A DNA stretch of 64,000 nt from Platycnemis pennipes (taxonomy: Eukaryota; Arthropoda; Insecta; Odonata; Platycnemididae), in the NCBI GenBank assembly GCA_933228895.1, contig OW121854.1, positions 57,206,609 through 57,270,608 of the forward strand. Reading direction: 5' to 3'. The notes under the pieces were generated by a model. That model worked only from the letters and a program-made list of their open reading frames with translations. It was not told where the DNA came from and did not search any database. This document shows positions 8,400-59,565 of the stretch, in pieces; the stretch's first letter is position 1; every line of letters begins with the position of its first letter. The position numbers were made by a program, and so were the translations under genes.

Positions 8400-10500
8400 A
8401 TTTTGCTACCTGTAATCTGAGTAATAATCCGTCTTCCCAGCCTTTAAATTACTGGCTTCAATCTTCAGTCTGGCCTCTCTTTGGATACCCATTTCGGTTT
8501 CGCTTCCCCGTGCGCCTTCTTCCCCTACGTGTCCGTGCACGCATCAACCCAAAATCCCTTCCTTCCCCTCCGTCTCCCCCTGGTACCCCATTCCTTCAAC
8601 CCTAGATGGTGCCAACCAATCCCATTCCTTCTTACCCCATCGTCCCATTTTGATTCAACCACCATTCTCCAACTCAATCTCCTGTCCTTCCAGCCTCCTC
8701 CATTATACGATCATGCATCTATATGTTTGTATTAGGTGCGCATGTAGTATTCATGAGATAAGTGAGGCCAAAATGCGTGTGAAAATGTAAAATACAGCAT
8801 TGCCCCTACCCTGATTTCTAATGTATAATCAAATAGCCCTGTAATAATTTCCTGGAACATGCCAAAATGCATGGTTAAAATTGAAATTCCATTTGAAAAA
8901 AATTTCCTAAGAAAAGGAAATATTTTTGCTAGAACTTTTACTTTTAAAAATAAAGGACCTCGGTCCGTTATTTTCCTTGAATAAACAATACGTTAGGGAA
9001 AACCCTCAGACTTATGGACAACATTTTCAAGGGGTAATGTGCTATTTTGAATTATCCAAAGATTCTTTTGTCTTCATCATTATTCTGTAGCATGAAGTTT
9101 CGAGTGATTCCAGACTTGACTTGCCCGCTGCTTTTATCATCCATGCTTCCATTCCATAATCAGTATTTTTGTCTTCCTTACATTAGTCTCCTCTTTTGAT
9201 CAGCGTACACAATCGTGCCACCTTGCTTATACTTTTCCAATATTGCCCGCTATTTCCAGCCTTCCAGCTTCTATCGCGACTTTCAGTAAAATATGGCTTT
9301 TATAATCAGTTCCGCCATCTTTTTGATGCTTCCCCCTCCCAGTGTTCCTACGACTTTCTTTTTCTTCCTCCTCTGCCACGCATTGCGCTTCTTCGTTTGT
9401 ATTCCTTCCTCCCAAACGCATCGCACTTCCCCCGTTCTACTCTTCGCCCAGAACATGTGATGCGCGCACCTATAAATATGCACCCTGCGCCTGAAACCCT
9501 TTCCTGTTCATTTGTCAGCTGCCTGTTCAACCATCCCCACCCTCCTCTCCGTTCCCTCTCCTCGCCGGGCGCGTATAACTGGCGTTGGATGAAGGAGAAG
9601 GGTGTTTTGGCGTCGGACAAAGGGGAGAAAGGTATGGGTGAGCCTCTTGAAGCGCTGAAAACGAAGGGAGAATAATGGGGGAGGGGAGGACATGAGGAGA
9701 GAGCAAGGGTAGAGAGAGAAAGCCCTTACTCTCCAAGCTGTGTTGCAATTCTCCACCCCGCTATCGATCCTCCTTCCTTCCCCACACCAACCTTCCTCCC
9801 CAACTCTTCCCCAAGGCTCTGTTTATGTCCCATTCTTTCCCTTCCCTCATAACTCTCCTTCCTACCCTCCCTCTTCTCCTCCACCCACTTATCTCCCATG
9901 TTTCGCCCATCCGAAGCCTTCCACTGTTTCAGTCAACCCACTCCACTTCTCCTCACCATTGCCTCCTCTGCTCGGCCATGCTGCATCCTCTTCCCCTCGC
10001 CTTCCTCTCTCTCTCTCTCTCCCTTTCCTTCTCTGTCACTCCTGTCGTCTCGTGCTTGACCTCTTTTTCATTGCCATCTCTCGCTGATGAAGGGCGGTCT
10101 TGAATCTCATCGGGGAGGGTGGTCTAGTTTTTGAGCCCTCACCTTCTCCATGTCCCTGGAGGATCGGGATCTTCTCATAAAGCGACGATGGTGGGGGAAT
10201 GTACCAGACTCGTGCACGTGGAGAGAATTTTGAAAAGGCCAGTGATCTATAAACCTTCTTGGCGACCGATGTGATAGCTTGAGTAGGACACTCGTTGCTA
10301 ACATGAGACATTCCCCGTTGACCTTTTTATTGACTTTTAATTGAGTGTTAGGGCGACTCCTATGGGACGTTTTCTTACTGTCGTAAGTGTTCCTCCTTGG
10401 TTCAGTCCTGCTCTGTTTAAGTTATAAGTTTTTCACCAGACATTATGAAAAATTCACTGCTATCCTGTTTCCCCCAGTGTCTTATGATACTTGCCTCCTC
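8400..10500. other. non-coding stretch with pyrimidine-rich tract
   Basis: No gene recognised. From about 9700 to 10080 the plus strand is strongly pyrimidine-rich and includes a CT dinucleotide run at 10005-10021. Frames that stay open here encode low-complexity Pro/Ser/Leu peptides and are not credible genes. Confidence 0.55.
10005..10021 (+). repeat. (CT)n microsatellite
   Basis: Perfect CT alternation of about 17 bases inside a longer pyrimidine-rich tract. Confidence 0.85.
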
Positions 10501-14295: not shown

Positions 14296-15012
14296 TCAGG
14301 TTCGAAGTGTTTGATGCAGGTTTTTGCCCGTCTTGTATAGGCCTTGGTTTTGGCTAGGTGCGTTCTGATTGGTCCGTTTGGGTAAGAGTCTCTTCCAGGC
14401 GTAAGAGAGCGAATAGCTGTCCTCCCTGATGAATGTGGATGTTTTCGCTATTTCGATAGCCTCTCGTATGAGACCGGGAAAGTAATGCTTCTCTCTAGCG
14501 ATGATTTTAGCATTTTCGTATATTGTGTGTTGGTCCTTCCCATACGTGCTCGGCGATGGCGGATGACCGAAACTGCCTATTTTTGGTGGCTCTTGCATTC
14601 TGCATTTCATGGCTCTTGATGTTTGGCCAATGTATGAGTCTCCGCAAGAGCACTTAACTTCGTATATTCCGCTTTGGATATTCATGGGCACGCGGTCCTT
14701 GGCCTTGCATAGGAGGTTGGATGTCTTCGTGACACAGTTAAAACGTGTCACTATATGTTTCCCAAGAATTCTTGCAATTTTTTCCGATGTCCCGGCTACA
14801 TAGGGAATTAAGGCATAATTGGGGCAATAACTCGTGTTATTTGATTTAATTTTTAAATTGACTTGAATTTCGCAAAAAATATGTTTTAGGTTTGCCAAAT
14901 AAGCCATTCCCATTTCCGAGCAACAATCACTATTTGTCCATAAGAATTTGCTTCCGTAGGCCCTGTCGTTTTTCTTAGAGCCCACTCTACATCCTCCTCC
15001 GTGCCTACACAT
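14296..15012 (-). pseudogene. Penelope-like element, GIY-YIG endonuclease domain relic
   Basis: This frame ends in a C-terminal GIY-YIG endonuclease domain of the Penelope-like retroelement type. Visible in order: a linker IPYVAGTSEKIARILGKH, where RT joins endonuclease; GIYEVKCSCGDSYIGQTSRA, with GIY at about 14662-14670, YIG at about 14626-14634 and the Cys-x-Cys pair typical of these elements; then HTIYENAKIIAREKHYFPGL-IREAIEIAK, the family's C-terminal helix region. Between about 14590 and 14535 the displayed frame is wrong: a neighbouring frame there encodes SSAIAEHVWEG, the expected family motif. One single-base loss and one compensating gain therefore flank that block. No reverse-transcriptase core (YADD-type) is seen upstream, so the copy is 5'-truncated and non-functional. 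In intact elements this domain nicks DNA to prime reverse transcription. Confidence 0.8.
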
Positions 15013-15489
15013 CTCAACTTAAGTCTTTTCATTTTCTTTCCTTAAAGCCCATATTTCTTACGGTGCCACGCTCAGCATTAGAGATTTTACCGATCTCTTC
15101 TCTACGTCCCTGCTCACGGACCATGTCATTAGTTTTCTTCCACGAGTAAATGCATCCGTCACCAACGTGATTTTCCTTCGAGCTTCTATGACTCTAATCC
15201 CCTTTTCCTCCAAAATACTGACTAATTAGCTAAATTGTAACACAAACTGGATCTTGTGACCTACTAACTTTAAATTTAATGTGACCATTGAAAATCTGAT
15301 GACATTTACTAGAGGAAACAAATTCCGGCAAGATATGTGAAAAATACTTACTCCCTTTCATGCATGTTATCTTCAATTTTTCGTACTGAATTTGTGATGC
15401 ACCTAGAAATTCTGTTCTTTTGGTTGAATAGCTAACTAAAGCTTTGTCAGCCTTATCGACATACTTTTTTCCTGACCTGTTCTCCATGA

Positions 15490-30609: not shown

Positions 30610-31085
30610 AGACGTTCATCATTATCATTACTCGTCAATCTTCAGATTGGTTTGATGCACCTCTCCTCTCAGTTGTTTTATTGGTTATTCTCTTCATACT
30701 TACGTATTTCTTCTCTTCATCCTTCTCTACATCCTTTCTCACTTGTTCCATACTTCTCATACGAGGCCTTTGCCGTTCTTCCCGTCTACTTGTAGTTCAA
30801 CGATTGTCTTCATCTTATCTTGTCTTAATATATGGCCGATTAAGTTGTACCGTCTTCTTCTTAGTTTTCAGCAGACTTGTCTTTTCTCCCGCTCTTCTTA
30901 GGACTTCATCATTACTTACCCGGTCGATCCATTTTATTTTCATAATTCTTCTGTGGCACCACATTTCGAATGCTTCCACTGTTGTCATTGCCCATGCCTC
31001 ACTGCCATAAAGAAACATGCTCCAGGCGTACGTGCTGATGAATTTTTTCCTTACTTCTACGCTTGTATTTCCAGCTGTAAGATGA
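30610..31085 (-). pseudogene. RTE/Jockey-like retrotransposon, 5'-truncated copy
   Basis: The minus strand encodes FLYGSEAWAMTTVEAFEMWC-HRRIMKIKWIDRVSNDEVLRRAGEK (67-codon frame at 30815-31018), which is the region just downstream of the reverse-transcriptase core in a widespread arthropod endonuclease/RT element. The second copy at 59.2 kb has an extra AAEKKR between WTMT and VEAF, so this copy lost about four codons in frame. The 3' part continues to about 30610, ending with CAAACCAATCTGAAGATTGA and an ATGATAATGATGA tail, matching the 59.2-kb copy. No RT catalytic motif is present because of 5' truncation near 31085. Confidence 0.75.
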
Positions 31086-31129
31086 TTCCTCTATATAATG
31101 GAGAAGTTAGGGATTTTTTTAAAGTGAAC

Positions 31130-41700: not shown

Positions 41701-42390
41701 TCCTCCTGTCTCTCGTCCTCCCGAGGCGAGTCATCTTTCCGTCGCCCCTCTACGTGTTATGCTCAGCATGCTTGGTGCACGTCAACCCTACATCCCTCTC
41801 TCTCTCTCTCTCTCTCTCTCCACTCTCGTCATTCCCATTCTTCCATTGTTACTGACGTGGTCTTCTTGCTTCGCCAGCATCCTTCCACTCCCTTTGACCT
41901 CTTCGTTCACGCCCGAAGACTTATCCATTCCAGGCGGTCCTTTTTTTATTTACACATTTTCTTCCTTGTGGTTCCGAACCATTTCAGATCGTTTCCATCG
42001 CCTCTTTCGATTTCATCCATCAATTCCGTATGCTCCGGGTTAGTTTCGTTCCGTTTGTGCGTATTTTTTGCCACATGTTTGCCTTGAAGCGATGGTAGGG
42101 ATGGAGAAGTAAAGGAGTAGGTAAATATGGGAAGACAGGTCGTGAGAAACACGCTAAGGTCTTAAAAAAATATATTTTCTGTTTAATTTATTTCAATCTC
42201 CACCTCGTCCAAAACTTCTTCCAACTATAACCCATCCGTCACCTAAATATAATAATCCATCTATTATTTGCCTCTTAAATTCTTCTTATCCTCTACTATC
42301 CCATATGCTGCTGCAATTTCGTTGAGGTGTTAAAACGTTTGATCTGGGCAGGAAAAGGTCTCCCTCGTAAACTTGTGGTATACATATCTT
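38755..42390. other. non-coding stretch with microsatellite
   Basis: No gene recognised. A possible tRNA-like head lies near 39449-39510 (box-B-like GGGAGTTCGAATTCCG at 39479). A long CT repeat occurs at 41796-41821 within pyrimidine-rich DNA. A 72-codon minus frame at 40841-41059 has varied composition but no known motif. Confidence 0.45.
41796..41821 (+). repeat. (CT)n microsatellite
   Basis: Thirteen perfect CT units, the longest dinucleotide repeat I see in the window. Shorter CT runs lie at 58286-58300 and 61546-61560. Confidence 0.9.
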
Positions 42391-42394
42391 TTCT

Positions 42395-42655
42395 CTCACT
42401 CTCCTTAGGACTTCTTTGTTTGTCACTCGGTCGATCCATTTTATCTTCATCATACATCAGTAGCACCACGTTTCGAGCACTGCTAGCCAAGACTTTTCTG
42501 CACTGCTATCGTCCATGCCTCAATGCCATAAAGAAGTCTAGTTGCATGTTCTAAAGTAGAATATACATTAAACACTTCATTATAACTTCTAGTGAAGTGT
42601 TTCCTTACTTCCATGCTTGTATTTCCTGCTGTAAGCAGATTCATCTTTTGATAGA
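42395..42655 (-). repeat. RTE/Jockey-like retrotransposon 3' relic
   Basis: The minus strand retains the order of the 30.6-kb copy: CAGGAAATACAAGCATGGAA then GTAAGGAAAC near 42600-42635, a TTCTTTATGGCATTGAGGCA segment near 42517-42536, then GATGAAGATAAAATGGATCG and GAGTGACAAACAAAGAAGTC near 42410-42452. The last two encode the M-K-I-K-W-I-D-R-V-T-N-K-E-V block. A roughly 55-bp interruption (about 42540-42595) and stops show decay. Confidence 0.65.
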
Positions 42656-42659
42656 ATGT

Positions 42660-43970
42660 TCTTTTCGTCTAGGCATTTCCACTATTTCCTTCTTACATTG
42701 GGCATCGTTGACCTCTAGGATTCCTAAATTACATTACCCTTTCACCCCCTCGACCTTTCGTTTTCCTTTTCAAGTGTTAGGGTGTGGTAAAGAGACTTTT
42801 TCAATACCGAAGAAGTTATTACTTTACAAGTCGGAGATTAATGGTGGGTAAATTGTGGGTCATTGAAGAGTATTAATTGGATGTTCCGGTAATACACTGA
42901 TATGAGATGTGCATAATTCGTTGATTTAGGTCTCGTTTGATCCTGCGAAAAAATGTGGTAGTCTTAAAGAAAAAAGGACTTGGTGAGAGGCAGTACGAGG
43001 GAGAGTGGGTAAGTGGAAGACAGGTTTCCCCAGCCCAAAGAGAGGTGTAATTTTTAGGAAGATAATATTAATATTTTCAGTAACCAGTTTTTACTCTATA
43101 CCTCGAAAGGCAGGTTCTGAGGGAAATGCGATTTTTGAGTATATCCTTCAGTGTAAATAAATCTTTGCAAACATATGTTACCCACATAGGTACCTCCTAC
43201 GCTTGTTATTACACAGTTGCCTTATTCGCCTCCCCCCTTTTATAGCATGCCATTATTCAGTATATTTAACTATCAACACTTGCTTGGAAAAGTCTTTGGT
43301 AAGCCGTTTATTCCAGAAGTTATTAATTAACCGGTCCATCCCAAACGGTTGACTGAAATTTTTTTTTACTTAACCTGCTCCTTACTTGCTTACGACATGT
43401 ATTTGTAACTTGTCTCTTGTTGGCTGACGTGCGTACTTCAACACGCGATGAAGAAGCATTAATGATAGTTTCTTGATTTCCTCCTCTTTAAATTTGTCTT
43501 ACCTACGTTTTCCGGACTTGTAAACAATAAATTTATGCATATATAATTTAATATGTAAATTATATTTAAGGACATTCGTCCTTCGAAATCCCTACTTCCT
43601 TTTTACGAGGCAATGAGTATGAGGAGTGATGACATGTAACTTTAATGCAACTCTAGTTGAGGTTCATTTGAAGTAGTAATTACCGAGTTGCTTCGTTTGC
43701 ACTTTCTTTTTTTTTTAGATTCAGTGTGGTTTAATGTGAAAATTGTAAACTGATTTCCTATTTTCGTGCAGCAAAATTTTAGCCTGCTTCGCAGCCAATC
43801 ATTTCTATTAAAACCATCGCGTGGTGAAATAAAACAAATGCGTTTACTGTCATTTAAGTTTATCGTAGTAACGGTGACGCAGAGTACACAATAATGGCTA
43901 ATTCGTGATATAGTTTATTGGGGAGTCGGTGTAGCATGTTGCTCCTTTAAAACCTCAAGAAATTTAATGG
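42660..43970. other. non-coding stretch, no gene seen
   Basis: AT-rich; nothing recognised. Confidence 0.5.
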
Positions 43971-44720: not shown

Positions 44721-44725
44721 CGTCG
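44721..44725 (+). repeat. 5-bp target-site duplication, left copy
   Basis: CGTCG directly precedes the CACAGTG end. The same CGTCG follows the other end at 48715-48719. Five-base, GC-rich duplications are characteristic of Transib transposons. Confidence 0.9.
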
Positions 44726-44763
44726 CACAGTGGTCGGAAATCGAAAATACCTGGCCAAAATTC
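44726..44763 (+). promoter_or_regulatory. RSS-like terminus: heptamer and weak nonamer
   Basis: The first seven bases, CACAGTG (44726-44732), equal the consensus V(D)J recombination signal heptamer. After 22 bases the sequence CCAAAATTC (44755-44763) matches six of nine positions of the ACAAAAACC nonamer, close to the 23-spacer arrangement. In Transib the ends are the transposase binding and cleavage sites. The heptamer match is exact; the nonamer match may be chance. The same arrangement occurs at the other end. Confidence 0.7.
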
Positions 44764-45672
44764 AAAAAGTGATTTTTTCAAGCCAGGAAGCTGAAACTTT
44801 GCATTAATATTCTCAAAAGACCTGTGCATGCGATGACGCAAAGCATTTTCCGTAGTACACAGCACTTAACAATTAGCATGAGGTCAAAGTTGCACAAATT
44901 TCGCAAAAATTGTCTACACTCAATTTTCTCACGAAATCTTCAAAATCAAGCCCATACTAAAGCATTATGTGTAAATAACTGGAATAAAAAGTCATTTCAT
45001 TAGATGAAACAGTTTTTTGTCTTTGTTCTCATGTAGTCTGCTTACATTTTTGTAATTATTTACCAAAGATATTAAACAAAATGGCAGACCCTCATTTTTG
45101 GTCATTTTTTTAATATATGTAGAGAAAAAGTAAATTGCATCGCCGAGCATCACGGAGTAACTTATATGGGGAAACTATACAAAGCTTCCACAGTGCGAAT
45201 CCGATGAGTGATGCTGCGACCGTTTGCGACGCCGAATTTCACATCAGTTTTTCGGTCGCGCGGTCGAGTCTGGTTGAACCCGCCTGCAGCGGGGAGTAAC
45301 GTGGCGCGGCAAGTGTGTGGACTGGATTGTAGTCGCATCCACTCCGCTTTGGAGATTTTCGAGATACAAACATTGACAAGATCCTCCATGCATTATATTT
45401 TGCAGAAATCGCGGAAAAAATTACGCATTTTATCACGTGGGGTAAAGGTTTAGGAGGTACTGAAAGACTTCTTTCTTCGGGTTCACTGCACCGCGGGAGT
45501 TTCTCTTCTTACCAACTTGACACCGCCTAGCGACGAATACGTACACTTTTAACGGAGACAGCATGCATACCACACAGGATTATTGTCCATTCGAGGCCAC
45601 CCACCCACAGCTGGTGTCGCACGGCTGCAATTCCCCCGCCCCCTGCACTGCGGTTGGGCTTTCGGCGAAGGG
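44726..45672 (+). repeat. left long terminal inverted repeat of the Transib element
   Basis: 947 bp. Compared base by base with the reverse complement of 47769-48714, it differs at two places only: base 44839 (C here, T in the other arm) and one extra T in the T-run at 45013-45018. Identity ends abruptly after AAGGG at 45672. The arm contains a GC-rich middle (about 45180-45340) that keeps frames open on both strands, but no family motif was seen in it. The inner end cuts into the transposase gene. Confidence 0.95.
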
Positions 45673-47267
45673 CGAAGGGAAAAATCTTATATGACGATGC
45701 AGTGTAGATATGCCAAAATTGTAAGTGTCCATATTAATTGATCTTTGGGCCAATTCATTACGTTTATTCATACTTGAAATTTTTGCCCCACAAATATAGC
45801 ATTTCATGCTACCACTCTCCGTCAATGCGTTGCATACCTAATTTGGAAGTTTTCGTTTAGTTAACACATTAAAATAAAATTATGACTTTTTTTTGACAAT
45901 TTTAGACGTTGTACCTTTCCGTTCATCGTGGTGAGAAGCAGAGGAAAATTAATGGAGTAGTTTTTCCATTTGAATGTATTTAAAGTATCACATTGCCTCT
46001 TTATATACATCTCCTCTGCCTTCGCCACTTCTTTCGTCTCTTTGATCCATTGAAGGCGAATGGGGCGGCAGAATCTTGTTGACGATGGCCTAGGGTTCAT
46101 CCAAATAATTGCACCTAAAGTATAAGGAAATGTCTTTAAACATCAGAAAATATTATGAGTAATAATTAAATGTTTTTACAAGAGATTACGGAAAACATCT
46201 ATTATTCTTTGTCATTGTTACCTGTCTCGTCGTTCACTAAACGCAGTGGCACTAGGGAGCTGATCAACAAGAATTCATCCGACATCGATTCTTGATGCCA
46301 TCTTTGCTTATACCTAGAATGACTTGAGCTTCCGTCAAAACCATATTTACAAATTAATGTACAATTTATATTACGCGCGGTTGTTGAATCTCTGGAAATG
46401 CATTCCAAGATACGCAATTCTGTATGATGTAGTAGACTTTGAAGTTTAACTTCACATGAGTCCTCTAAAATAATAACTTCACTTGGATAAGTAGCACTTT
46501 TAGCCATCAGTATTCTTTCGTAACTGGGATATAATTTATGGCCATGACTTTCTGCTACTTTTCGAAGACCTATATACTGGCTCTTCGTGAGTTGCATGGA
46601 AATAATTAGAGATAGAGCCTCTTCCTCTGACATAGTTGTTGGCATCAGGTCAGTTTTCTTCCACTTCGACAGTACTCTTCTAGACCTAGTTGGTGTGGTC
46701 GTGGTAATTTCTTTGATGAGCTTGGAGGCTGCTTCATCTCCCTCTTCTCTCAATAGAGGCCGCGAATGAAAGAGCTGCCGCAGAATGAGACGATCTCAGA
46801 CATTCTGTTTTCCTTCTCTTTGATCTTTCGCTGAAAGTGCGAAAACATTTCGGCGGACGCCAAGACGTGCCTAATAAGGGTTGAAATGCAAGAACAAATT
46901 TAATTTTTTTTCAATTATTAAAGGCACAGCGTCATTTCTTAATAATCATTAATCGTTCAGATATACTTACTGGACGACGTTGAAGAACCTGGCAAATTTT
47001 GCAGTAAATGTTCGGGAAAAACCGCATTTATCTTTAGCCATTCGCCATAACGCATCAAAAATCTCTCGTTATTCCGTGAGCTTCGTTCCCATCGTTGCAA
47101 AAATTCATTAAGACAGAACACCTTAACGTCACTTAAATCCCTTAAAACGTCATTATTCACTTCTAAATGCAACCTTTCGGCGATACATTTTAACAAATGT
47201 TTTCTTTTCATGCGAAATGACGCATTTTTCACTCCCATTAATATTTTATACATTTGCAAACGTGAGA
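45673..47267 (-). pseudogene. Transib transposase (RAG1-like DDE recombinase), multi-exon, broken and C-terminally truncated
   Basis: In intact form this is a DDE recombinase that cuts at the CACAGTG ends. Exon A runs from about 47267 to 46971 and includes FLQRWERSSRNNERFLMRYG. Intron A, 46871-46970, has donor GTAAGTAT. Exon B, 46870-46222, reads HVLASAEMFSHF and IVSFCGSSFIRG, then a frameshift near 46755, then EEALSLIISMQL, CKYGFDGSSSHSRYKQRW and DEFLLISSLVPLRLV. The Asp in FDGSS (codon 46334-46336) fits the first catalytic Asp. Intron B is 46115-46221. Exon C, 46114-45915, reads IIWMNPRPSSTRFCRPIRLQ and TMNGKV, where the family has Asp; here it is Asn (45921-45923). Intron C is 45838-45914. 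Exon D reads VCNALTES, the zinc-binding CYIC (45790-45801) and FGISTLHRHIRFF, then runs into the arm. The exon A/B junction is also one base out of frame. The part with the catalytic Glu is absent. Confidence 0.85.
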
Positions 47268-47269
47268 TT

Positions 47270-47768
47270 ACAAATCTAACAATATTTATTATTCACTAAC
47301 ACCAACAAACCCTAAAAGAGAACCGAAAGTATAAGCATAAAGAGGAAATAAGCAAGTACAACTTTATGCACATCCCAAAAGAAAAGAATATATGGAAAAG
47401 GGAATTGGCATGGTATTATGTATTCTGCAATAATACTGACGATTTGATATCAGAAGCCATTGCAGATAAAAAAAAACGAAACAGACATTAGCTTGTACTA
47501 ATAGAGTACGCATACCTTGAAAAAGTGAGTAATCTTGAAGTGGTTAGCAACGTATCCTTACCATTAGGAGTTGTAGAGGGAATTTCGGGAGATCCAATAT
47601 TGACACCAACACGAGTGAAATCCGAGCTGAAGTTTCAAAATCTACTGCTTCGAACCACTGCCAAAATGAAACTGAACGCTCTAGTGCATTTTGTTGGAGA
47701 CTAGGAAACGTTTTCCCAAAAATATCCGCAACTAAAAGCGTAAAGGGATCCGCGGTGTCCTAAACGGA
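47270..47768 (-). other. upstream part of transposase gene, possible 5' exon
   Basis: This lies between the recognised transposase exons and the right arm. On the minus strand a short frame reads TRVGVNIGSPEIPSTTPN and is followed by AATG|GTAAGGAT, a good 5' splice site with its GT at 47561-47560. It could be an N-terminal exon, but I could not match its phase to a 3' splice site before the next exon, and a stop lies upstream of TRVG in this frame. Otherwise nothing is recognised. Confidence 0.35.
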
Positions 47769-48714
47769 CCCTTCGCCGAAAGCCCAACCGCAGTGCAGGG
47801 GGCGGGGGAATTGCAGCCGTGCGACACCAGCTGTGGGTGGGTGGCCTCGAATGGACAATAATCCTGTGTGGTATGCATGCTGTCTCCGTTAAAAGTGTAC
47901 GTATTCGTCGCTAGGCGGTGTCAAGTTGGTAAGAAGAGAAACTCCCGCGGTGCAGTGAACCCGAAGAAAGAAGTCTTTCAGTACCTCCTAAACCTTTACC
48001 CCACGTGATAAAATGCGTAATTTTTTCCGCGATTTCTGCAAAATATAATGCATGGAGGATCTTGTCAATGTTTGTATCTCGAAAATCTCCAAAGCGGAGT
48101 GGATGCGACTACAATCCAGTCCACACACTTGCCGCGCCACGTTACTCCCCGCTGCAGGCGGGTTCAACCAGACTCGACCGCGCGACCGAAAAACTGATGT
48201 GAAATTCGGCGTCGCAAACGGTCGCAGCATCACTCATCGGATTCGCACTGTGGAAGCTTTGTATAGTTTCCCCATATAAGTTACTCCGTGATGCTCGGCG
48301 ATGCAATTTACTTTTTCTCTACATATATTAAAAAAATGACCAAAAATGAGGGTCTGCCATTTTGTTTAATATCTTTGGTAAATAATTACAAAAATGTAAG
48401 CAGACTACATGAGAACAAAGACAAAAACTGTTTCATCTAATGAAATGACTTTTTATTCCAGTTATTTACACATAATGCTTTAGTATGGGCTTGATTTTGA
48501 AGATTTCGTGAGAAAATTGAGTGTAGACAATTTTTGCGAAATTTGTGCAACTTTGACCTCATGCTAATTGTTAAGTGCTGTGTACTACGGAAAATGCTTT
48601 ACGTCATCGCATGCACAGGTCTTTTGAGAATATTAATGCAAAGTTTCAGCTTCCTGGCTTGAAAAAATCACTTTTTGAATTTTGGCCAGGTATTTTCGAT
48701 TTCCGACCACTGTG
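47769..48714 (-). repeat. right long terminal inverted repeat of the Transib element
   Basis: 946 bp, the inverted partner of 44726-45672. It lies upstream of the transposase start, so it is the likely original arm: the 5' region of the element. The left arm would then be a copy that replaced the 3' part of the gene. It ends CACTGTG (48708-48714), the heptamer in reverse complement. Confidence 0.95.
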
Positions 48715-48719
48715 CGTCG
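48715..48719 (+). repeat. 5-bp target-site duplication, right copy
   Basis: CGTCG, identical to 44721-44725, immediately outside the right end. Confidence 0.9.
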
Positions 48720-58969: not shown

Positions 58970-59565
58970 AAAGAATTATGTTATCTGGAAAGCCGAGTAA
59001 CCAACGATGGACAAAGCAAGAAAGAAGTAGTCAGTAGAATAGCTCAGGCAAAGAGAGGCAATAGAAGAATCAATAGAATATCTATCAATAGAAGAGTCTA
59101 CCTACAGCTGGAAATACAAACGTAGAAGTAAGGAAGCAATTTATCAGAACATACATTTGGAGCATGTTTCTTTACGGTAGTGAGGCATGGACGATGACAG
59201 CAGCGGAGAAGAAAAGGGTAGAAGCATTCGAAATGTGGTGCTACAGAAGAATGATGAAGATTAAATGGATCAACCGAGTAAGGAACGATGAAGTCCTAAG
59301 AAGAGTGGGAGAAAAGAGAAGGAAGCTGAAAACTCTGAATAACGGACAACTTAATCAGCCATATCTAAAGACAAGATAGCCTGATGAAGACAATCGTCGA
59401 GGGAAATAGGAACGGGAAGAATGGAAAAGGCAGGCCTCGTAGGTATGAGTTAGATGGAACGGGTCGAGAAGGTTGTGAAAGAGAGATTGTCCGATAGAAG
59501 AATAGATTGGAGGGCTGCGTCAAACTAATCCTAGGATTGCTGAAAGATAATGATGATTGCTGCCT
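58970..59565 (+). pseudogene. RTE/Jockey-like retrotransposon, 5'-truncated copy
   Basis: From about 58977 the plus strand reads YLESRVTNDGQSKKEVVSRI-AQAKRG in a broken frame, the family's 'Y-L-G-S-x-I-T-x-D-G' block after the RT core. A 71-codon frame (59164-59379) follows: FLYGSEAWTMTAAEKKRVEA-FEMWCYRRMMKIKWINRVRN-DEVLRRVGEK. Coding then decays to GGAGGGCTGCGTCAAACTAA and an ATAATGATGAT tail near 59550. Stops near 59130-59160 separate the two parts. It is the longest and best-preserved of several copies of this family in the window. It lacks the RT catalytic motif, so it is a dead 3' fragment. Confidence 0.8.

Follow-up and report, generated by a model that had tools for sequence, protein, structure and literature searches.

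The question raised by this locus is whether the transposon at positions 44726–48714 of a 64,000-bp stretch of DNA (the window) encodes the transposase that moves it, or is a defective copy moved by others. A sequence-only reading had described it as a complete Transib (RAG1-family) transposon with a 5-bp duplication. We are highly confident that the element is instead a non-autonomous member of a Transib family with long terminal inverted repeats (TIRs), resident in an insect genome that is most likely odonate. It is a new member of the known Transib superfamily, and no description of its family was found in narrow searches of open papers.

Ends, long repeats and the transposase gene

The transposon proper is 3,989 bp long and is flanked by CGTCG at 44721–44725 and, directly outside the right arm, by the same letters at 48715–48719. 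The outer bounds of 44721–48719, in which the target-site duplications are counted, had been placed exactly to the base. Alignment of the two ends revealed a left TIR of 947 bp on the plus strand (44726–45672), beginning CACAGTGGTCGGAAATCG, and a right TIR of 946 bp on the minus strand (47769–48714). The two arms differ by one mismatch and one gap and lie ~2.1 kb apart. As had been claimed, both ends begin with CACAGTGG; these two occurrences, inverted relative to each other, are the only exact ones in the window. The bare count of this 8-mer is no more than chance (shuffle mean 0.89; two or more in 21 of 100 shuffles), yet its placing is non-random, because the two occurrences open both long arms and CGTCG lies directly outside each. 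In the window, 896 inverted 20-mer pairs were found 100–8000 bp apart, one of them elsewhere; as the other 895 are the element's own arms, this count is no independent test of chance. When CACNGTG end pairs 80–6000 bp apart were collected from the window, the single pair with identical 5-bp flanks was that of the element ends. Behind the heptamer, the best match to the nonamer of a recombination signal sequence (RSS) was 6/9, at spacers of 10, 22 and 29, which is not convincing. An extra CACAGTG heptamer lies within each arm, at 45189 (plus strand) and 48246 (minus strand), ~463 bp from the end, with no sign of use.

Between the arms, a splice model gives a transposase gene on the minus strand with four exons and three GT-AG introns. 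Exon 1 (46971–47253), with a probable ATG start at 47253, has weak tblastn support from the Transib homologues P0010 (22% identity) and P0029 (31%). It is followed by intron 1 (46871–46970) and by exon 2 (46222–46870), which contains FDGSS and whose main frame matches the HzTransib chain 6pqn_A in phmmer (E 3e-22). Comparison of overlapping frames with the homologues located a frameshift inside exon 2, in the stretch 46738–46775 between LSFAAS and LREEGD. Intron 2 (46115–46221) leads to exon 3 (45915–46114), which carries NPRPSSTRFCRPIR and is placed by the splice model together with homologue matches, and intron 3 (45838–45914) leads to exon 4 (45679–45837; tblastn), which carries the CYIC zinc pair and FGISTLH and ends after HIRFF, truncated by the left repeat. 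The four motif blocks on which the superfamily had been proposed thus all lie on the minus strand in N-to-C order, joined by GT-AG introns. The tblastn matches of the homologues stop at 45679, 7 bp short of the inner end of the left repeat, and the junction of the truncated exon 4 with that repeat (45666–45679, minus strand) consists of a CCCTTCG tandem doublet that is single in the right arm.

The joined translation past the frameshift (297 aa) matched 6pqn_A, the transposase of HzTransib from Helicoverpa zea, with E 1.3e-51 over chain residues 6–262 of 497, and two single gene parts also matched it by themselves (E 3e-22 and 1.1e-23). The runner-up for the joined translation was the RAG1L chain 6b40, with a non-significant E of 0.058. 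A profile built from 20 full or partial homologues reached HzTransib at 7.8e-176, 6b40 (RAG1L) at 5e-10 and 3jbw (RAG1) at 7.4e-10, others being weaker. The proposed Transib membership is therefore borne out strongly, as is the Transib order of the motifs, and the proposed similarity to RAG1 becomes significant through the homologue profile only. Pfam gave nothing above cut-off for the four element open reading frames (ORFs) given or for the joined exons, so PDB sequences and homologues were used in its place. A full-length homologue, P0039, touches the Pfam RAG1 family below cut-off (16.1 versus 25 bits), and some homologues carry the precomputed label PF26100, which the window's own pieces did not reach. 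As for a RAG2L gene, no Pfam family at cut-off was found in the element ORFs given, and no search was aimed at RAG2.

One search at E ≤ 1e-3 gave 131 transposase homologues and listed 120 of them; residue counts use the 124 that comprise every homologue listed in this search and one other. Each of the 124 has a match in the central part of the element and none in the terminal repeat at E ≤ 0.001. In the tree, the closest named proteins are those of Ladona fulva and then of Ischnura elegans, at 50–60% identity. The catalytic triad of HzTransib is given in an excerpt of PMC6941560 as D126, D225 and E436, which correspond to residues 109, 208 and 419 of the aligned chain (constant offset 17). In the window gene, the codon equivalent to Asp126 (46334–46336, minus strand) is intact, and the codon at the Asp225 position (45921–45923, minus strand) is AAC, for Asn. 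The Glu436 equivalent is absent because the homology ends after HIRFF at 45679. Of the 124 homologues, 117 have D at site 1 and four a gap; at site 2, 99 have D, five N, 16 a gap and four some other residue; 19 extend to site 3, and 18 of these have E there. The match stops at residue 262, and ~235 of the 497 HzTransib chain residues, Glu436 included, are missing. Homologue C-terminal pieces compared with the whole window produced nothing credible (best E 0.04). The element thus has neither a DDE triad nor an uninterrupted coding sequence, and the word "complete" has to be withdrawn; the long repeats, the frameshift, the Asn at the second site and the lost C-terminal half were all absent from the sequence-only reading.

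Copies in the genome and likeness of their arms

A search of the window's own genome (assembly of 1,793,331,434 bp in 88 contigs) revealed at least 13 copies, window copy included, that match the element at 95–100% along its length, save a few bases at most at either end, and rearranged relatives besides; the best 40 of 2007 candidates were scored, so the count is a lower bound. We examined 17 loci (L002–L009 and L030–L038, L002 being the window copy). Both ends were readable in 14, and 13 of these, including the window, have identical 5-bp flanks. These copies, too, end at CACAGTGG, which agrees with the boundaries first proposed; together with the similarity to HzTransib, the sequence-only reading thus passes both checks that had been named as able to refute it. 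On the fetched strand the 13 duplications are CGTCG (four), CGACG (five), CGCCG, CGGCG, CGGCA and GGTCG, that is, CGNCG in 11 of 13. Genome-wide, the exact 18-bp end was found 781 times (391+390; control 0), directly preceded by CGNCG in 461 cases (231+230; control 0); for comparison, CGNCG occurs 136 times in the 64,000-bp window. A GC bias of Transib targets is reported in a passage of PMC8289069, and copies with these ends show this preference. A random genome sample of 202,000 bases contained no piece of the element.

Eight full-length copies, the window copy and seven others, were compared and differ by 0.08–2.1%. All eight have the Asn at site 2, the frameshift stretch and the exon 4/TIR junction with the CCCTTCG doublet, and four have a further one-base gap in the frameshift stretch. 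That these features are common to all eight indicates that a broken founder multiplied, and the broken form has indeed spread to at least 13 near-full-length sites. When the exon 3/intron 3 site was probed genome-wide with 23 bases and up to two mismatches, 22 matches were obtained, 21 with Asn and one with Asp; this probe misses some copies, several full-length ones among them.

Some of the loci carry foreign DNA. In L030 (2324–3384) and L035 (1583–3032), DNA that by eye resembles other retroelements interrupts the central part or takes its place, and no Transib protein matches there. L031 (2246–2505) and L032 (2249–2509) lie on different contigs and have an identically placed insert of ~260 bp in common, suggesting that the element probably moved again after gaining it. 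Two degenerate C-terminal Transib fragments lie in an arbitrarily chosen 10-kb stretch (L013:128–598, plus strand, and 9270–9527, minus strand).

The least expected result is the likeness of the two arms of a copy. In the eight full-length copies, arm-to-arm differences over ~935 bp number 1, 2, 1, 5, 4, 1, 5 and 6 (mean 3.1), and arms from different subclades differ on average at 14.6 positions over the same length, whether from the same or the opposite side. In six other copies the differences are 0, 11, 2, 0, 4 and 4. Within most of the 14 copies, therefore, the arms are more alike than the TIRs are between subclades. At 13 alignment columns, two subclades are fixed for different states in both arms at once: seven substitutions, four short-gap columns and two at the alignment end. 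These two end columns, as well as columns 937–939, which concern one arm only, probably reflect the cutting of arms at 935 bp. As the junctions are common to the copies, the arm pair predates them, and the arms appear to have been homogenised since. The sequence comparison thus suggests that the arms of a copy evolve in concert.

Arm length is 941–947 bp in the full-length class and reaches 987 (L033), 1074 (L030), 1280 (L035) and 2284 bp (L034) in rearranged copies. In one class, an inverted copy of the left 1–1185, exon 4 included, replaces the right end. One copy, L034:306–5549, has 2,284-bp arms that are 99.8% alike and forms a near-full head-to-head palindrome with a CGACG duplication. 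The likeness of the arms could result from arm-to-arm gene conversion or from repair templated by the opposite arm, which would sometimes extend the TIR inward. We put forward only tentatively the idea that the process is tied to transposition, such that excision by RAG-type chemistry or a break at an end would be followed by the rebuilding of one arm on the other.

Origin of the element and its rivals

The simplest inference from these sequences is that the founder would have arisen from a longer parent with long TIRs, the C-terminal half being lost in an internal deletion that stretched from exon 4 as far as the inner end of one TIR. A probe for exon 4 continuing past the break gave 131 matches at up to two mismatches (control 26). 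Nine such run-on sites are listed on C1, and eight of them lie within facing pairs of exact ends 3,752–4,075 bp apart. In seven of these eight elements, the 3.8-kb class, the 18-mer of TIR position 465 is present at both ends. The distance from the first catalytic site to the run-on site is 630–653 bp in five of the eight, compared with 654 bp in the window, implying that the gene is collinear in those five. In a further 3.8-kb element, C2:675469–679259, the gene is cut differently and the 18-mer of position 855 is present at both ends. The occurrence of these 18-mers at both ends shows that repeats of at least ~480 bp are common to differently cut relatives, and repeats of at least ~865 bp to one of them.

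Alternatively, the 0.95-kb repeats might be a private fold-back, in which an inverted duplicate of one native end took the place of the other end and destroyed the gene. The truncated exon directly adjoins the left arm, their junction being marked by a 7-bp doublet, and arms of 0.99–2.28 kb in other copies indicate that end rearrangement does happen in this family. Moreover, the exact position 855 18-mer is found at neither end in any of the eight 3.8-kb elements on C1, so that a full-length TIR in relatives is demonstrated for the C2 element alone. The position 465 18-mer in seven of eight relatives and the C2 element itself speak against a private event, as do the long TIRs described for HzTransib too in part of PMC1852546. 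We consider the fold-back unlikely, and less likely than internal deletion from a presumed parent, although it gains some weight from the eight C1 elements that lack the inner 18-mer.

Other accounts concern what the broken copies do. The view that the element is a complete, autonomous Transib encoding its own working transposase could draw on the perfect ends and duplication, the three GT-AG introns and the strong similarity to HzTransib. It is hardly credible for a gene that has lost Glu436 and ~235 residues, carries Asn for Asp225 and has a broken frame in exon 2, and whose C-terminal half could not be located in the rest of the window (best E 0.04). The truncated protein might instead have been retained because it represses active Transib elements in trans, in the manner of KP, a repressor of P elements. 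The N-terminal exons do persist in the eight full-length copies and the first catalytic Asp site genome-wide, but with the frameshift stretch in all eight and the extra gap in four, there was no sign of an intact truncated frame being maintained, and we judge such a role highly improbable. A silencing function is also conceivable by analogy with Mu killer, a partly duplicated, inverted MuDR proposed in a passage of PMC3440606 to be a hairpin silencer in maize: transcripts of arms 0.95 kb long, ~2.1 kb apart and with one mismatch and one gap might fold into long hairpin RNA and yield small RNAs by which active Transib copies are silenced. None of the 124 Transib homologues matches the arms, however, and long arms are found in many copies of the family and not in one special silencer copy, which makes this function very unlikely.

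A non-autonomous family would presumably be mobilised in trans, and we therefore consider where a transposase could come from. A Transib protein query against the same genome gave at least 91 matches (best 84 of 4687 candidates scored); more than 40 of the 91 listed, counted by eye, have frames of 505–728 aa without a stop. Some matches fall into groups with identical scores, and one group of ten has equal or nearly equal scores. G000:C5:109843377–109844852 is an example of the places listed, with about 90 others. A second query gave at least 164 matches (best 109 of 4412 candidates scored) and revealed Transib families with breaks near the places of the window's introns 2 and 3. The uninterrupted frames are candidate helpers for the window family, and the genome harbours a large, possibly recent and possibly active Transib population or radiation. 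On the non-autonomous reading, a Transib transposase made elsewhere in the genome would bind the CACAGTGG ends, cut by the nick-hairpin route reported for HzTransib and insert the element into CGNCG-type 5-bp targets.

Several observations, besides the position 855 result, weigh against this account. The helper frames are known by location, and their action on these ends, like the parent element, is presumed. One end is absent in three of the 17 loci, and L031, the copy with unlike flanks, also has the most divergent arms (11 differences); this copy may be of recombinant origin. CGNCG does not precede 320 of the 781 exact 18-bp ends. The tree of arms places the two arms of a copy as an exact pair in nine of the 14 copies, some of these with weak support. 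The grouping of the window transposase with Ladona has moderate support (86/90) and is not a starred branch; since transposable elements can also pass from one species to another, an odonate host, judged from the nearest homologues, is probable.

Other repeats in the window and comparison with known systems

Elsewhere in the window, a 240-aa ORF on the minus strand (14296–15018) is GIY-YIG endonuclease-like, with 13 homologues (best 53% identity), no Pfam match and one short match in Ischnura elegans; we take it to resemble the GIY-YIG ends of Penelope-like retroelements. A dispersed repeat forms an inverted pair, ~80% identical, at 30766–31094 and 59088–59431, with more pieces at 42387–42665. 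Rfam at gathering scores gave no match in the window. In line with its being an animal element, the IMG/VR and GTDB genomes gave no match to the 22-bp end, and none of the candidate stretches for transposase relatives (66 and 153) was confirmed.

The element has the transposase homology, 5-bp duplication, CACNGTG-type TIR start and GC-rich targets of the Transib superfamily. Its nearest named relatives in the tree are the odonate Transib proteins of Ladona fulva (P0001, P0002, P0006) and of Ischnura elegans (P0009, P0030), Ischnura being an odonate; these represent different families and were compared through gene-model proteins only, not through their ends. The RAG1 core is thought to derive from the Transib superfamily. 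RAG1 and RAG-like proteins share with the window element a catalytic core that is homologous at profile level, and the heptamer CACAGTG is present in both, whereas the window sequence alone falls short of significance and its ends have no convincing nonamer.

Among known systems, HzTransib (PDB 6pqn and five further entries) is close to the element, with a transposase of similar sequence (E 1.3e-51). Its ends are heptamer-like, as in the window element (a passage of PMC8289069), and an excerpt of PMC1852546 gives a 5-bp duplication (GCTCG), long TIRs and a length of 3,518 bp, compared with 3,989 bp here. The relevant part of PMC6941560 describes a full-length HzTransib with a transposase that, when purified, cuts in vitro. 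In the window copy, by contrast, the C-terminal half is missing, the second catalytic residue is Asn, and the gene has three introns and is frameshifted.

Galileo of Drosophila, with 7-bp duplications as opposed to the 5-bp CGNCG duplications here, encodes a transposase of the unrelated P superfamily, yet variable long TIRs and alike arms are common to both families. Galileo TIRs reach ~1.2 kb, vary in length between copies and are 98–100% identical within a copy, and repair of one TIR from the other has been proposed (excerpt of PMC3573991). A few narrow literature searches did not turn up concerted long arms for Transib.

These features should be of interest to specialists: the concerted long arms come near the description of Galileo, and they occur within a rich surrounding Transib population. 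The genome offers a natural system for the evolution of RAG-like ends, of target choice and of TIR length, a value that rests on many uninterrupted transposase frames alongside non-autonomous copies with clean, mostly CGNCG duplications. If the arms are indeed kept alike by a process tied to transposition, each jump would rewrite the ends and keep the arms in step, and the inner edge would occasionally be dragged into coding DNA, as arms of 0.94–2.3 kb may reflect, repeatedly generating new non-autonomous subfamilies.

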